Below are positions 6,392 to 32,847 of a stretch of 32,974 bases of DNA, piece after piece (position 1 is the stretch's first letter; each line of letters opens with the position of its first letter). A program made the position numbers and the translations under genes. Location of the stretch: contig NZ_MCGB01000095.1 in the NCBI RefSeq assembly GCF_001699815.1, forward strand, positions 1 to 32,974, given 5' to 3'. The notes below the pieces were generated by a model, which did no database searches, was not told where the DNA came from, and was given only the letters and a program-made list of their open reading frames with translations. The stretch comes from Ralstonia pickettii (GTDB lineage: Bacteria; Pseudomonadota; Gammaproteobacteria; Burkholderiales; Burkholderiaceae).

Positions 6392-6931
6392 TTACTTCTT
6401 CTTGGTCTTCGCGGGCGGCGCCAGCATCGTGCCGCGGCACCTCTTCGCGCCGCAGCGGCAAGCAAACTGTTCCTTCAGTGCCTTGGTCTGCCGACCTTCG
6501 ATGACGAGGCCGTAGTCGTAGAACAGCTCTTCGCCAGGTTCGATATCGCGCAGCGCATGAATGAACACGCGACCATCCTCTTCCCGCGCTTCGCAGTTCG
6601 GCTTGCAGGCGTGGTTGATCCAGCGCGCGCGGTTGCCGCCGAACTTGGCGTCGATCACGCTGCCGTCTTCCAGGCTGAAGTAGAACGTGTGATTCGGATC
6701 GGACGGGTCATGCGGATGGCGGCGCAGTGCCTCCTTCCACGTGATGTGCTCGCCCTTGTATTCGATGATCTTCTTGCCGCGTGCGATCGCGACCACAGCA
6801 TAGACACCACGTCCGTGCACACCAGATTCACGCACCTCAATGCGATCGCGGCGGCGCAGTTTGGCCGGCGCTTCCGGCGTGGGCGAGGACTCAGCCAGAG
6901 CCGGTGCGGCATCAGGGGACGTGCGTGTCAT
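6392..6931 (-). CDS. SET-domain protein, probable protein-lysine methyltransferase
   Basis: A 179-residue protein with a compact SET domain (about 29-145): GVHGRGVYA at the start, FYFSLEDGSVIDA, the S-adenosylmethionine and pseudoknot motif NHACKPNC at 106-113, and ELFYDYG at 135-141. It is followed by a post-SET zinc cluster (Cys158, Cys160, Cys165 in CRCGAKRC). The ends are disordered, with a Pro/Ala-rich N-terminus and a lysine-rich PAKTKKK tail. SET enzymes are common in eukaryotes but also occur in proteobacteria; the bacterial substrate is generally unknown. It is convergent with the kinase gene (16 bp apart) and divergent from hupB across a 634-bp gap. No good ribosome site is visible before the ATG. 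Confidence 0.9.
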   Translation of the reverse strand: MTRTSPDAAPALAESSPTPEAPAKLRRRDRIEVRESGVHGRGVYAVVAIARGKKIIEYKGEHITWKEALRRHPHDPSDPNHTFYFSLEDGSVIDAKFGGNRARWINHACKPNCEAREEDGRVFIHALRDIEPGEELFYDYGLVIEGRQTKALKEQFACRCGAKRCRGTMLAPPAKTKKK

Positions 6932-7229
6932 GAGGAAATGGCGCGGTAAAGCGAAACAAGAACGTCGATCAACGAAGCCGTGAGCCTACACCAAAAGCAT
7001 GGCTTCTCGACATGTGCCGCAACCCCATGTCGTCCCACCAATGTGGATAACCCGGCCTGCAGCTGTGGATAACTACCGGCAAAGGCTGTTGGCTGTCTGT
7101 GGCTGCCCTGTCGACGGTGTGGGCACAAGTGACGGGGTTGCCAGTCGGGCGGTCGGAAAAATCAGCAAGCTATCCACCTGAGGACACACGCGGTACCCTC
7201 GGTTTTGCGTGCAACAAGTGCTTGAACAT

Positions 7230-7312
7230 AAAGCGCTTTTTCCACTTATCCACAGAAACTATCCACCGTTATCTACTACTACTATCTGTATACATAAGAA
7301 AAAAGGTAAACC
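7230..7312 (+). repeat. Direct repeat copy 1: DnaA boxes plus CTA trio element
   Basis: This segment is repeated in the same orientation at 30524-30602. An unbroken 38-nt block (7260-7297) is identical to 30554-30591. The flanks also match: AAAGCG at the left end and GTAAACC at the right end. The two forward DnaA boxes have the same 13-bp spacing in both copies. No transposon ends or target duplications are visible, so it is not an insertion sequence. Confidence 0.9.
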
Positions 7313-7565: not shown

Positions 7566-7844
7566 ATGACGAAAACCGAACTGATCGACGCCATCGCCAG
7601 CGGCGTAGACGGTCTGACCAAGGCCAAGGCAGAGCAGGCACTGAACGTGACGCTGCAAGCCATCATGGAATCCGTTGGCAAGGGCGATGCGGTCAGCCTC
7701 ATCGGCTTTGGTACCTTCAGCCAAGGTGAGCGTGCCGAGCGTATGGCCCGCAACCCGCGCACCGGCGAAGAAATCAAGGTCGAAGCGGCCAAGACGGTCA
7801 AGTTCAAGGCCGGCCAGAAGTTCAAGGACGCTGTCAACGCCTAA
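7566..7844 (+). CDS. hupB: DNA-binding protein HU-beta
   Basis: A 92-residue histone-like nucleoid protein with the complete HU fold: helical N-terminal MTKTELIDAIA, the strand segment DAVSLIGFGTF, and the flexible DNA-bending arm with ARNPRTGEEI (the intercalating proline motif RNP), ending KFKAGQKFKDAVNA. HU compacts the nucleoid as a dimer and assists DnaA-driven strand opening at oriC in E. coli. An upstream in-frame ATG at 7485 would add 27 unrelated residues. The start at 7566 has a good GGGAG ribosome site about 8 nt upstream. The leader is long and contains the DnaA-box module and two inverted repeats. Confidence 0.97.
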   Translation: MTKTELIDAIASGVDGLTKAKAEQALNVTLQAIMESVGKGDAVSLIGFGTFSQGERAERMARNPRTGEEIKVEAAKTVKFKAGQKFKDAVNA

Positions 7845-14081: not shown

Positions 14082-14876
14082 ATGTCCCAGAAGAAAGCGC
14101 CGCTGTTCGAGATCCGCAGCGGCACCGTCGATGCCCTGCTGCTGTCGCCGCGCACCGCCGACATGGACGCCCTGGCCGCCGAACTCACGCGACGCTTTGC
14201 CGACACGCCGGAGTTTTTCTCCAACGACGTTATCGCCATCGATGTGCGCCGCCTGGCGGAAGACGAGCGCCTGCCCATCGACCGTTTGGTGGAGACCTTG
14301 ACCGCGCTGCGTGCCCGTGCGATCGGCGTGGTTGCCAGCCCTGAACAGGCCGGGTGGGCCCAAGCCTTTGGCCTTCCGCTGCTCGATAGCCACGGCCGCC
14401 GCCCGCGTGGCGGAAATGACGCCAAAGATGCCGACCGCAATGACGCGCAGGACGCACAGGGTGCGCCCGAGCACGCCCAGGCCGCTGAAGCCCCCGCCTC
14501 CACTTCCGCTATTCCTCCCGCCGATGCCGCGGCTATGCAGCCCGGCACAATGATCGTCGATCGCCCGCTGCGTTCGGGCCAGCGCATCTATGCGCGCGGC
14601 GACCTCGTCGTGCTCGATCTGGTGAGCGACGGCGCCGAGGTGATCGCCGAGGGCAACATCTACGTGTATGCCTCGCTGCGCGGCCGTGCGCTGGCAGGTG
14701 TGAAGGGCAACCTGGACGCGCGCATCTTCTGCACGTGCCTGGAGCCCCAACTGATTTCCATCGCCGGCATCTACCGCACCGGCGAAACCCCGTGGCCCGA
14801 CGCCTACGCCAGCAAGCCTGCGCAGGTCCGGCTCGCGGACAACACGCTGGTTTTCGAACCGTTGCGGATGAAGTGA
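14082..14876 (+). CDS. minC: Septum site-determining protein MinC
   Basis: Inhibits FtsZ polymerisation away from midcell, guided by MinD. The 264-residue protein has the MinC N-terminal FtsZ-inhibiting domain (about 1-105, [19 protein letters not shown] and [14 protein letters not shown]). A long acidic, alanine-rich linker (about 118-155) follows. The C-terminal beta-helix domain (about 156-264) has [28 protein letters not shown]-like [20 protein letters not shown] and [20 protein letters not shown]. This is the MinD-binding and dimerisation part. It is the first gene of minCDE. No clear ribosome site is visible. Confidence 0.97.
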
Positions 14877-14920
14877 CGCACCCCGTGCGCCGAGCGATTT
14901 AACTTACAGAGTTACGAGCC

Positions 14921-15742
14921 ATGACCAAGATCATCGTAGTCACCTCCGGCAAGGGCGGCGTCGGCAAGACGACCACCAGTGCGGCGTTTTCCGCCGGCCT
15001 TGCGCTGCGCGGCCACAAGACCGCCGTCATCGACTTCGACGTCGGCCTGCGCAACCTCGACCTCATCATGGGCTGCGAGCGCCGGGTCGTGTATGACCTG
15101 ATCAACGTGATCCACGGCGAGGCCAACCTGAACCAGGCCCTCATCAAGGACAAGAAGTGCGAAAACCTCTTCATCCTCCCCGCCTCGCAGACGCGCGACA
15201 AAGACGCGCTCACGCGTGAAGGCGTCGAGAAGGTGATCGAAGGCCTGAAGGAAATGGGCTTCGAATATATCGTCTGCGATTCGCCGGCCGGTATCGAGTC
15301 GGGTGCGCTGATGGCGATGTACTTTGCCGATGAGGCCATCGTGGTGACGAACCCGGAAGTCTCTTCCGTGCGCGACTCCGATCGCATCCTGGGCATCCTG
15401 TCGTCCAAGTCGCGCCGCGCGGTGGAAGGCAAGGAGCCGATCAAGGAGCACCTGCTGCTCACGCGCTACAACCCGAAGCGCGTGTCCGAAGGCGAGATGC
15501 TGTCGCTGACCGACATCCAGGAAATCCTGCGCATCAAGCTGATCGGCGTGATTCCGGAATCGGAAGCTGTGCTACAGGCGTCCAACCAGGGCACGCCCGC
15601 CATCCACATCGAAGGCTCCGACGTGGCGAATGCCTACCACGACGTGATCGATCGCTTCCTGGGCAAGGAGAAGGAACTGCGCTACGTCGAATACAACAAG
15701 CCGGGCTTCCTGCAGCGCCTGTTTGGCGGCAGCGGTAAATAA
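14921..15742 (+). CDS. minD: Septum site-determining ATPase MinD
   Basis: A 273-residue ParA/MinD-family ATPase that recruits MinC to the membrane and oscillates with MinE. The deviant Walker A motif [10 protein letters not shown] (residues 9-18, signature Lys11) and the switch motifs [12 protein letters not shown] and [12 protein letters not shown] are present. The C-terminal amphipathic membrane-targeting helix is seen as [10 protein letters not shown] within the last 15 residues. It starts 44 bp after minC and is followed 14 bp later by minE, in the standard operon order. The length and all motifs are normal. Confidence 0.98.
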
Positions 15743-15756
15743 GGAGACGCACATTC

Positions 15757-16011
15757 ATGTCGATTCTGTCTTTCCTGCTCGGCGAGAAGAAGAAGACTGC
15801 AAGCGTTGCCAAAGAGCGCCTGCAGATCATCCTCGCCCATGAACGTACCGCCAGCGGTGCGCCCGCCGACTACCTGCCCGCGCTGCAACGCGAGCTGGTG
15901 GCCGTGATTTCGAAGTACGTGAAGATCGGCAACGACGACATCAAGGTCAACCTCGAGCGCCAGGACAACCTGGAAGTGCTTGAGGTGAAGATCGAGATTC
16001 CGCAGGCCTGA
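15757..16011 (+). CDS. minE: Cell division topological specificity factor MinE
   Basis: An 84-residue protein that stimulates MinD ATP hydrolysis and confines division inhibition to the poles. The N-terminal membrane and MinD-binding part ([30 protein letters not shown] is split here as SILSFLLG then [14 protein letters not shown]) is followed by the C-terminal dimerisation domain [18 protein letters not shown] and [11 protein letters not shown]. An AGGAG ribosome site lies about 10 nt before the ATG. It is the last gene of minCDE and ends 7 bp before the convergent citrate-synthase-like gene. Confidence 0.97.
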
Positions 16012-30314: not shown

Positions 30315-30523
30315 TCGGGCGTCAAGAACTCCGCTGTGGACAACTCACCCTCCCCCTGTGAATAACTCCAGGGACAAGCGTGTTGGTTCTCCGGGGTCAG
30401 CAGGCAGACAGCACGGGAACAACTTCCCACCGGGTCGACAGGGTGAGACGCGATGCCCCCGACTCATCCACGCGAAAGCACACGCTGTCCGGTGGGTTGT
30501 CCGTTCTGCAAGCCGTTGATACC

Positions 30524-30602
30524 AAAGCGGTTTTGCTGCTTATCCACAGGACTTATCCACCGTTATCTACTACTACTATCTGTATACATAAAGAAGTAAA
30601 CC
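30524..30602 (+). repeat. Direct repeat copy 2: DnaA boxes plus CTA trio element
   Basis: Same orientation as 7230-7312. The block 30554-30591 is identical to 7260-7297. The second DnaA box here is a better consensus (TTATCCACC) than in copy 1 (CTATCCACC). No transposon features are visible at the ends. Confidence 0.9.
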
Positions 30603-30631: not shown

Positions 30632-30777
30632 TGGCTGGGTTGTGGGTAAAGCCGCCTGCAGGGCAGGCCATGGGTGATGCAGCCACCGAACGCCTCCGCC
30701 CAATCTCTCGCGCAATAGCGTCAAGTGCCTCCCAAGTTGTTCCCGACATCACGGGCTGCTCGTCTTGCTGCCGCCAT

Positions 30778-30801
30778 ATATTTCGAATATATTGGAAATA
30801 T
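30778..30801. promoter_or_regulatory. 24-bp inverted repeat overlapping the arsR start (probable ArsR operator)
   Basis: ATATTTC and GAAATAT form the outer arms and AATATATT the centre, symmetrical except for one G/G pair of positions. The right arm runs over the likely ribosome site and into the ATG of arsR at 30800. AT-rich interrupted palindromes at the start of the operon are typical ArsR/SmtB sites, which supports autoregulation. Confidence 0.75.
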
Positions 30802-31123
30802 GGAAGAAAACGACGCTATACGATCCCTCGCCGCGCTGGCCCATGGCATTCGCCTGCAAGTGTTTCGCATGCTGGTAGTTGCGGGGCCAACAGGTCTGAC
30901 TCCGGGCGCGATTGCCGAACAGCTCGACGTGCCGGGCGCCACGCTGTCATTCCACCTCAAGGAGCTGACAGCCGCGCGCCTGGTGACGCAGGAGCGCGAC
31001 GGCCGCAACCTGATCTACCGCGCGGCTTATGACCACATGAACGCCCTGCTGGGCTTCCTGACGGCCAACTGCTGCCAGGGCGAAGCCTGCCTGGAAGCCA
31101 ACGCCGCCGCCTGCAAATGCTGA
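30800..31123 (+). CDS. arsR: ArsR family arsenic-responsive repressor
   Basis: A 107-residue winged helix-turn-helix repressor released from DNA by As(III). The helix-turn-helix reads LTPGAIAEQLDVPGATLSFHLKELTAARLV (about 33-62, shown in two parts in the family alignment). Metal-site cysteines lie at the C-terminus: Cys91, Cys92 and Cys97 in NCCQGEAC, plus Cys105 and Cys107 in the tail CKC. A vicinal pair plus a third cysteine near the C-terminus resembles the As(III) site of Acidithiobacillus-type ArsR rather than the E. coli helix-4 CxC. It is the first gene of arsR-arsI-arsC-aqpS and its start overlaps a 24-bp palindrome. Confidence 0.93.
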   Translation: MEENDAIRSLAALAHGIRLQVFRMLVVAGPTGLTPGAIAEQLDVPGATLSFHLKELTAARLVTQERDGRNLIYRAAYDHMNALLGFLTANCCQGEACLEANAAACKC

Positions 31124-31135
31124 AGGAGCATCCCC

Positions 31136-31624
31136 ATGAAACGATTCCACGTCCATGTCCACGTTGACGACCTGAGCAAGAGCATCGCCTTCTACTCCAA
31201 GCTGTTTGCAGCTGAGCCGACGCGTGTGGAAACCGATTACGCCAAGTGGATGCTGGATGACCCGCGCATCAACTTCGCCATCTCGACGCGTGGCAGCGCC
31301 GCGGGCGTGGACCATCTTGGCTTTCAAGTCGATGACGCTGCCGAGCTGGCCGAACTGAAGGCCCGCGCCGAAGCCGCAGACATGGCCCTATTGGACGAAG
31401 GCGAAACCACCTGCTGCTATGCCCGCAGCGACAAGCACTGGATTACCGACCCCCAGGGCATCGCCTGGGAACACTTCCATTCGCTCGGCAACATCCCGGT
31501 ATTCAGCGAAGACAACAAGGAAGAAGCCGCGACGGAAAGTTCTGCCTGTTGCGCACCGCGTGCCCCGAAAGGCAAGCCGATCGGTATCGCAGTGAAATCC
31601 GACGCCGGCTCATCCTGCTGCTGA
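31136..31624 (+). CDS. arsI: ArsI/CadI-family vicinal-oxygen-chelate dioxygenase (C-As lyase)
   Basis: A 162-residue protein of the vicinal oxygen chelate fold. ArsI cleaves the carbon-arsenic bond of trivalent methyl- and aryl-arsenicals to release As(III). Candidate iron ligands are His5 or His7 in FHVHVHVDD, His60 in VDHLGFQV and Glu112 in IAWEHF. The substrate-binding cysteine pair is Cys93-Cys94 in TTCCYARSDKHW. An added C-terminal tail (about 120-162) carries two more Cys-Cys pairs (SACC and SSCC), which may bind or hand over As(III). It starts 12 bp after arsR with AAGGAGC before the ATG. CadI naming is the alternative for this family. Confidence 0.88.
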   Translation: MKRFHVHVHVDDLSKSIAFYSKLFAAEPTRVETDYAKWMLDDPRINFAISTRGSAAGVDHLGFQVDDAAELAELKARAEAADMALLDEGETTCCYARSDKHWITDPQGIAWEHFHSLGNIPVFSEDNKEEAATESSACCAPRAPKGKPIGIAVKSDAGSSCC

Positions 31625-31639
31625 CAGCGAATCGAACCC

Positions 31640-32134
31640 ATGGCCACCAACGTCCTCATCCTCTGCACCCACAACTCCGCGCGCAGCGTGCTGAGCGAAG
31701 GGATGCTCAACCATTGGGCCAAACAACTCGGCAAAGACGTGCGCGCCTACAGCGCCGGCAGCGCACCGAGCGGCCGCCTCAACCCGTTCGCCCTGGAAGC
31801 CCTCACCAACGCAGGCATCGACACCACCGGCTACCGCAGCAAGAGCTGGGACGAATTCGTTGCCGACGGCGCACCGCAGATGCGCATCGTCATTACCGTG
31901 TGCGACAGCGCCGCAGCGGAAGCCTGCCCGTACTGGCCCGGCAGTCCCGTGAAGGTGCATTGGGGCTATGCCGACCCCTCAAATGCCACGGGCGGTGGCG
32001 AAGGCAAGCGCCAGGCCTTTGAGCTGACACGCCAGGCCATCGGCTACCGCATGCTGCAGTTGCTGGCCCTGCCGCTGGACACGCTCAGCAACGCCGAGCT
32101 GCAGGCCGCGCTGGAACGCATTGCACAGGCCTGA
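31640..32134 (+). CDS. arsC: Arsenate reductase ArsC, low-molecular-weight phosphatase type
   Basis: Reduces arsenate to arsenite. The 164-residue protein has the phosphatase-type anion loop CTHNSARS (Cys9) near the N-terminus, the segment YSAGSAPSGRLNPFALEAL, then the redox region TVCDSAAAEACPYWPG with Cys88 and Cys96, and a late DPS...GEGKRQAFELTRQ segment. Three spaced cysteines fit the thioredoxin-coupled class, in which electrons pass through an internal disulfide; the exact reductant is inferred. It begins 15 bp after arsI and is followed 5 bp later by the channel gene. Confidence 0.92.
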   Translation: MATNVLILCTHNSARSVLSEGMLNHWAKQLGKDVRAYSAGSAPSGRLNPFALEALTNAGIDTTGYRSKSWDEFVADGAPQMRIVITVCDSAAAEACPYWPGSPVKVHWGYADPSNATGGGEGKRQAFELTRQAIGYRMLQLLALPLDTLSNAELQAALERIAQA

Positions 32135-32139
32135 GCACC

Positions 32140-32847
32140 ATGGTCGAACTGCGTAGCCGGCTCACCGCCGAAGCCCTGGGTACAGCATTGCTGCTGGCCA
32201 TCGTGATCGGCTCCGGGATCATGGCCGAGCGCCTGGCGGGCGGAAACGTCGCCATCGCGTTGCTCGCCAACACAGCCGCCACGGTGGGCGGCCTCTACGT
32301 CCTGATCGAAGCCTTGGGGCCCGTCAGCGGCGCGCACTTCAATCCGGTGGTCAGCGCGGTCATGGCGGCCCGTGGCGAGCTGCCCGGCGCTGCCCTGCTG
32401 CCGTACATCGTTGCGCAAATGACGGGCGCGGTGCTGGGCGCATGGCTCGCGCACGCCATGTTCGACATGAGCCTCCTGCAGTTGTCCACCAAGGTGCGCA
32501 GCGGCACGGGGCAGTGGATTGCCGAGGCGGTGGCTACCGCCGGCCTGCTGCTGGTTATCCTGCGGGCGCCCAACGGGCGGGCCGCGTCGATGGTGGCGGC
32601 GTACATCGGCGCGGCGTACTGGTTCACGGCGTCGACGTCGTTCGCCAACCCGGCGGCCGCGTTCGGGCGCATGTTCAGCAACAGCTTTGCCGGCATCGCG
32701 CCTGGCAGCGTGCCGGGGTTTGTGCTGGCCGAATGCGCGGGCGCCGGGCTCGGTATGCTGCTGCATCGCGTGCTTGAGCCCCGCTTTGCCGCAAGCGGCC
32801 ATCCCAACGTCATCGAATCGTCGGGCGAGCATCCGCCGCGGCCGTAA
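32140..32847 (+). CDS. aqpS: Aquaporin/glycerol-facilitator family channel, AqpS-like
   Basis: A 235-residue MIP channel with six membrane segments and two pore loops: first loop HFNPVVS (Asn68-Pro-Val) and second loop FANPAAAFGR (Asn170-Pro-Ala). In ordinary aquaporins the second motif is followed by a conserved selectivity-filter arginine; here that position is Ala173, which would widen the pore. In Sinorhizobium meliloti, AqpS in an ars operon releases arsenite made by ArsC. Position as the fourth gene after arsC (5 bp) supports that role here. No arsB or acr3 pump gene lies in the visible operon. Confidence 0.88.
   Translation: MVELRSRLTAEALGTALLLAIVIGSGIMAERLAGGNVAIALLANTAATVGGLYVLIEALGPVSGAHFNPVVSAVMAARGELPGAALLPYIVAQMTGAVLGAWLAHAMFDMSLLQLSTKVRSGTGQWIAEAVATAGLLLVILRAPNGRAASMVAAYIGAAYWFTASTSFANPAAAFGRMFSNSFAGIAPGSVPGFVLAECAGAGLGMLLHRVLEPRFAASGHPNVIESSGEHPPRP

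Follow-up and report, generated by a model that had tools for sequence, protein, structure and literature searches.

DnaA-trio modules near the HU gene and elsewhere in the probable origin zone of Ralstonia: a proposed oriC-type element of Burkholderiaceae and its further copies

Two DnaA-box modules in the window

The analysed stretch of DNA (the window) spans 32,974 nucleotides and constitutes contig C95 (NZ_MCGB01000095.1) of the 5.24 Mb, 113-contig assembly of a Ralstonia pickettii genome (G000; GCF_001699815.1). Between a gene for a SET-domain protein (6392–6931, minus strand; PF00856, E = 5.4e-24) and a gene for a hupB-like HU protein (7566–7844, plus strand; PF00216, E = 1.1e-29) lies a compact module (module 1, 7042–7312), from which the former gene diverges and downstream of which the latter is located. 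The left edge of the module is formed by two perfect inverted DnaA boxes (7042–7050 and 7064–7072, minus strand), followed on the plus strand by a degenerate box, CTATCCACC, read from the sequence (7170–7178), a perfect box, TTATCCACA (7246–7254), and a weak tandem box with two mismatches, CTATCCACC (7259–7267). The 5-nt spacer GTTAT (7268–7272) separates the weak box from four DnaA-trios, CTA ×4 (7273–7284, plus strand; 3'-GAT-5' ×4 on the other strand), and these are succeeded by an AT-rich stretch to which no strand is assigned (7285–7312), a putative unwinding element that contains GTATAC (7288–7293) and GTAAAC (7306–7311). The inverted boxes and the forward box are perfect, and both GTATAC and GTAAAC are present, in 16 of the 16 Ralstonia orthologues.

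A first-pass annotation of this DNA had proposed the two perfect reverse boxes at 7042 and 7064, forward boxes at 7170 (degenerate), 7246 (perfect) and 7259 (near), the 5-nt spacer, the four CTA triplets and the AT-rich tract; all of these can be read directly in the sequence, and the description is accurate base for base. It is incomplete, however, as a second module, at 30335–30601, was overlooked. The annotated absence of a nearby dnaA also holds, given that the gene is not found on contig C95 and is located on contig C86. Likewise, the proposed fit to the DnaA-trio model appears sound, with the order of elements agreeing with the published search model: a box pair, a spacer and at least three 3'-GAT-5'-type trios with a middle A follow each other on one strand, and, in accordance with the published trio rules, the better box lies upstream of a weak box with two mismatches and a 5-nt spacer.

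Module 2 (30335–30601) starts with the inverted boxes TTGTCCACA and TTATTCACA (30335–30365, minus strand; one mismatch each) and has a core (30540–30601) nearly identical to that of module 1. Both the box scan and the sequence place a perfect DnaA box at 30540–30548 and a tandem box, TTATCCACC, at 30553–30561; four DnaA-trios (30567–30578, plus strand as the two boxes) and an AT-rich stretch (30579–30601, no strand assigned) follow. The latter contains GTATAC (30582–30587) and GTAAAC (30596–30601), both retained in all 14 module 2 orthologues. Altogether, the window contains 13 DnaA boxes with at most one mismatch, compared to 2.16 expected, a number reached in none of 100 shuffles, so that the boxes are clustered beyond chance, as in an oriC. 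A search for a box followed by CTACTACTA yielded four matches at two places, 7247–7284 and 30541–30578, and none in 100 shuffles. The AT-rich element adjoining the boxes, another attribute of oriC, is likewise recognizable by sequence and conservation.

According to profile tests, module 2 has an LprI-family gene on one side and a gene for a helix-turn-helix regulator on the other. The latter opens a set of genes directly after the module (30725–32847), including also glyoxalase-family, low-molecular-weight phosphatase-family and aquaporin-family genes, which we take to be an arsenic-operon-like set. Between the two modules, at 14082–16011, lies a min cluster in which MinD is recognized by ParA/MinD family profile matches; its neighbours are presumably MinC-like and MinE-like proteins.

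A three-copy family in Ralstonia and its spread in Burkholderiaceae

When the DNA around module 1 was searched in 61 genomes, matches were found in 19, including all 16 Ralstonia. A sequence-only profile built from 11 cores (R1) detected three copies in 14 of the 16 Ralstonia genomes and two copies in the remaining two, which are incomplete drafts (88% and 90% complete). In the genome of the window, the third copy resides on contig C39. In the shared unit of approximately 260 bp, inverted boxes and a forward pair of boxes precede four trios and an AT-rich stretch; four [CT]TA trios are present in all 46 module copies read. Module 3 is oriented oppositely to modules 1 and 2.

In four near-complete genomes, every module copy is located on the dnaA-bearing contig, and modules 3, 1 and 2 lie, in this order, at about −378, −236 and −212 kb from dnaA in G008, −390, −242 and −210 kb in G009, −376, −224 and −197 kb in G010, and −382, −243 and −219 kb in G006, all under the assumption that the contig ends join at dnaA. 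No such assumption is needed for G005, where modules and dnaA share one contig and the respective distances are 378, 235 and 203 kb.

The mean pairwise identity of the cores is 0.94, 0.97 and 0.92 for modules 1, 2 and 3 (16, 14 and 16 orthologues, respectively), compared to 0.79, 0.67 and 0.59 for the remaining aligned stretch of the same sets. Beyond the unit, identity declines markedly at modules 2 and 3; on the far right side of module 3, some of the low values arise because the fetched pieces end there. The flanks of module 1, which sits between two genes, are conserved too. Within the genome of the window, the interiors of modules 2 and 3 are 69% alike, and those two are 57% and 55% alike to module 1, respectively. 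Module 3 lacks GTATAC in all 16 copies and has GTAAAC in only three.

Module 1 can be traced beyond the genus. In G008, a gene block extends from module 1 (−320 to −234 kb); it recurs next to the module in G171 and, in pieces, in G026 and G030, the three genomes representing genera other than Ralstonia; this shared gene block identifies module 1 as the orthologous copy. In G026 and G030, the module is separated from dnaA by ~84 and 161 kb, respectively. More broadly, R1 matches 124 of the 150 Burkholderiaceae genomes (E up to 0.001; some matches are weak). Of the 26 family genomes without a match, 20 were listed, and 19 of these are 0.2–2.7 Mb in size. In the 2.0 Mb genome G142, the match lies directly after dnaA. 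Contig C1 of G117 (genus g12) carries four R1 matches, three of which are at 21.6, 84.9 and 87.7 kb; almost every other member of this genus has one.

A search with the SET protein provided 80 named loci out of 254, and 59 of the 80 contain an R1 match (E up to 0.01; 69 rows); the 21 others belong largely to other families, with Roseateles and Rubrivivax as examples. Of the nine named loci with the SET proteins most similar to that of the window (L196–L204), seven are labelled Ralstonia and two Burkholderiaceae bacterium. A match is present in each of the 39 loci L205–L243, 36 of which are named Cupriavidus, and the distance between core and SET gene is at most about 1 kb in 37 of the 39 and ~4 kb in two. 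For C. metallidurans CH34, which is absent among these 80 of 254 loci, a skew switch has been reported ~90 kb from dnaA, beside a 213-nt stretch with three perfect DnaA boxes (PMC2864759). The location of the module beside the SET gene in Cupriavidus is reminiscent of this arrangement, although the pertinent part of that report names no trio or module.

Landmarks and strand composition

Several landmarks place the modules in a plausible origin zone. Using search patterns that we take to represent parS and dif, we found parS-like sites (at most one mismatch) at −264 to −262 kb in G008, −276 to −275 kb in G006 and 196–198 kb in G012, that is, 27–33 kb from module 1, and at 12–15, 26–28 and 44–46 kb from the module in G030, G026 and G171, respectively. 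No such site was detected in the window, or near dnaA in the scanned stretches of G008, G006, G030 and G026. In G008, gidA and module 1 are 27 kb apart; in G030, the distance from this gene to a module is 12 kb. A dif-like site, putatively dif itself, was found in all six Ralstonia genomes and in neither of the two other genomes searched; in the four near-complete Ralstonia genomes, its antipode precedes dnaA by 281, 214, 161 and 155 kb. Thus, the module zone is near parS-like sites and gidA and roughly opposite the dif-like site, as is characteristic of oriC. In G026, 16S genes are located at 19 kb (minus) and 282 kb (plus) and are directed away from the module, and none of the listed 16S genes lies between module 2 and dnaA in G006, G008, G009 and G010, making them uninformative there. 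By contrast, the KOPS motif GGGNAGGG shows left-arm polarity from module 2 to dnaA (14 versus 2 in G008, 25 versus 4 in G006), which disagrees with the composition switch described below and counts against an origin at the modules.

In the three genomes of other genera, the strand-composition switch is at or close to the module. Cumulative GC skew turns at ~161 kb in G030, where the stretch spans both sides of dnaA, and at 80–90 kb in G026, where it begins at dnaA. The orientation-corrected GC3-skew change point is at 163 kb in G030 (5–95% range, 154–165; modules at 161.7/162.2), at 88.5 kb in G026 (29–101; module at 85.0) and, in a G171 stretch that excludes dnaA, at 286 kb (quartiles, 276–300), about 13 kb from the module at 298.2. 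In Ralstonia, raw or simply corrected skew proved a weak guide when used alone: the simple change point of G008 falls near dnaA, at +7.6 kb, with a 5–95% range of about 330 kb (−203 to +128 kb), and that of G006, in a stretch which ends at the contig end just before dnaA, falls at −183 kb (−239 to −28).

Because of this weakness, a logistic classifier was trained instead on the codon-position composition of genes, using 18 far-arm G008 samples (281 genes) labelled by the dif-like site. Out of 20 far samples, training excluded one at 150 kb and another at 1.50 Mb, which lies closest to dif. The cross-validated AUC was 0.825 and the sign was correct in all 18 held-out far-arm windows. The best single switch is at −206 kb in G006 (module 2 at −218), at 259 kb on contig C30 in G012 (module 2 at 252) and at −141 kb in G008, 71 kb to the right of module 2. 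Relative to these optima, the log-likelihood drops by 1.1, 2.2 and 5.9 at module 2 (G006, G012 and G008, respectively), by 11.2, 17.9 and 19.8 at module 1 and by 66, 62 and 64 with module 3 as the sole switch; given that genes are non-independent, these drops are not probabilities. Hence, module 2 matches the Ralstonia switch better than module 1 does. The dnaA gene is rejected as the switch by 104 log units in G006 and 48.8 in G008, with none of 1000 bootstraps falling within 20 kb of it; for module 2, the share of bootstraps within this distance is 44% (G008), 88% (G006) and 54% (G012). At a high penalty, the one switch left is closest to module 2 in G006 and G012, and with the penalty lowered, G008 shows an additional switch at −209 kb. 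The lower penalties further delineate, within the right-arm DNA of two Ralstonia species, stretches with the composition of the left arm (G008, −177 to −141 kb; G006, −157 to −134 kb), perhaps reflecting an old inversion. The first 40–60 kb to the right of module 3 score −0.18 to +0.35 in G008, G006 and G012, compared to −0.26 to −1.46 for ten held-out far-left G008 windows. We conclude that the window probably lies in the origin zone of Ralstonia, with module 2 nearest the composition switch.

Origin, control site or promoter

The explanation that we consider probable is that module 1 is an oriC-type element orthologous to the origin of Burkholderiaceae, and that modules 2 and 3 are further, selected copies maintained throughout Ralstonia. 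This reading builds on anatomy, conservation, copy number, landmark positions and the approximate location of the strand switch. The first-pass annotation had left the choice between a true origin, a second origin and a DnaA-binding control site. The first seems to fit best, considering the family-wide core, its position at or near the switch in G030, G026 and G171, and the rejection of dnaA; because Ralstonia has three modules, the other two options may still apply to individual copies. The fuller GGGNAGGG count and the wide interval in G026 weigh slightly against the origin reading, including its multi-origin form considered below.

In the mechanism that we envisage, DnaA would bind the boxes at both module edges, and the forward box pair would load it across the 5-nt spacer onto the CTA trios, whereupon the adjacent AT-rich stretch would open and admit the helicase. 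Freshly replicated origins may be labelled by methylation at GTATAC and GTAAAC, a role that GATC has in E. coli. The basal unwinding system described for B. subtilis and H. pylori (PMC8287927) involves the same box, a weaker tandem box nearer the trios, a short spacer and 3'-GAT-5' trios. Unlike those origins, the modules, known here from sequence, lie tens to hundreds of kilobases from dnaA and occur in three copies in Ralstonia. The origin region of B. cenocepacia c1 is described as combining DnaA boxes, an AT-rich block and GTWWAC/CACAG methylation, with base-frequency gradients starting in the predicted origin region, although the exact oriC is termed uncertain (PMC4948915, PMC7364216); CACAG methylation, in contrast, is reported to be absent in R. 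solanacearum.

It is conceivable that replication starts at dnaA (or hemE) and that the modules are DnaA-titrating or -reactivating control sites akin to datA or DARS, but we regard this as unlikely. The dnaA promoter region does carry an inverted pair of perfect DnaA boxes (L001, 757–785), as for dnaA self-regulation, and a similar pair lies in an intergenic region near −290 kb in G008 (L061, 16361–16383), which, judging by position, is likely the hemE/priA locus and agrees with the published hemE oriC prediction. Moreover, Gao 2015 (PMC4403523) lists both dnaA and hemE as oriCs in a predicted double origin of R. pickettii 12D, the GGGNAGGG polarity switches near dnaA, and so does the simple skew of G008. 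However, neither locus has trios or an AT-rich element like that of module 1, and both were rejected as oriC candidates on this ground. The comparison with the dnaA intergenic sequence advised in the first-pass annotation therefore recovers the shared inverted box pair only; with trios and AT-rich element missing, that region is a poor comparator. In addition, the classifier rejects dnaA as the switch, and in G030 and G026 switch and module coincide. The 12D prediction shares with the multi-origin reading considered below the idea of more than one origin on a Ralstonia chromosome, and differs in that none of the three modules is named in the relevant part of that study. The datA and DARS control sites are DnaA boxes without an unwinding element, and none is required there. 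The modules, in which an AT-rich stretch follows the boxes, keep their trios in all 46 copies read. As an aside, G006 has 11 PF00308 matches, including, besides dnaA, ten equal-scoring 304-aa DnaA-domain frames, which are probably transposase helper ATPases.

Much less probable still is that the GTWWAC sites and the AT-rich stretch are simply promoter elements of the SET and HU genes. In the methylome study of R. solanacearum, the region between the SET and HU genes is one of five loci at which several methylated GTWWAC sites are conserved; it is read there as promoter control, with three such sites overlapping predicted −35 elements (PMC5390034). Yet the same core recurs at modules 2 and 3, away from SET and HU genes, and in G030 it sits between other genes, with the trios and box order retained.

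Compatible with the preferred reading, and to our judgement evenly balanced, is the proposal that one module only (module 2, or else module 1) serves as the origin, the others being regulatory decoys or dormant back-ups. Such a division of labour is consistent with the high-penalty switch being closest to module 2 in G006 and G012 and with module 3, without GTATAC throughout, differing in a likely control feature. Conversely, all three modules keep the opening anatomy, and the composition immediately right of module 3 is near neutral rather than left-arm. Near-neutral composition is what converging forks would leave, although a local inversion would look alike. More tentatively, Ralstonia might possess natural multi-origin chromosomes, in which two or three complete DnaA-dependent origins, within a span of about 155–180 kb, are active in the same cells and module 3 is under different control. 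E. coli strains with two or three origins have been engineered and grew (PMC7174701).

In the open-licence PMC literature, we found no experimental origin mapping for Ralstonia or Cupriavidus, and the published predictions cited here put origins at dnaA or leave them uncertain. The oriC-type module offers a precise, testable candidate oriC for a large family, and the conserved methylated GTWWAC sites gain another likely role. Ralstonia becomes a genus that allows a direct test of the one-origin rule for bacterial chromosomes; the use of more than one module, if true, would be very unusual for a bacterium.
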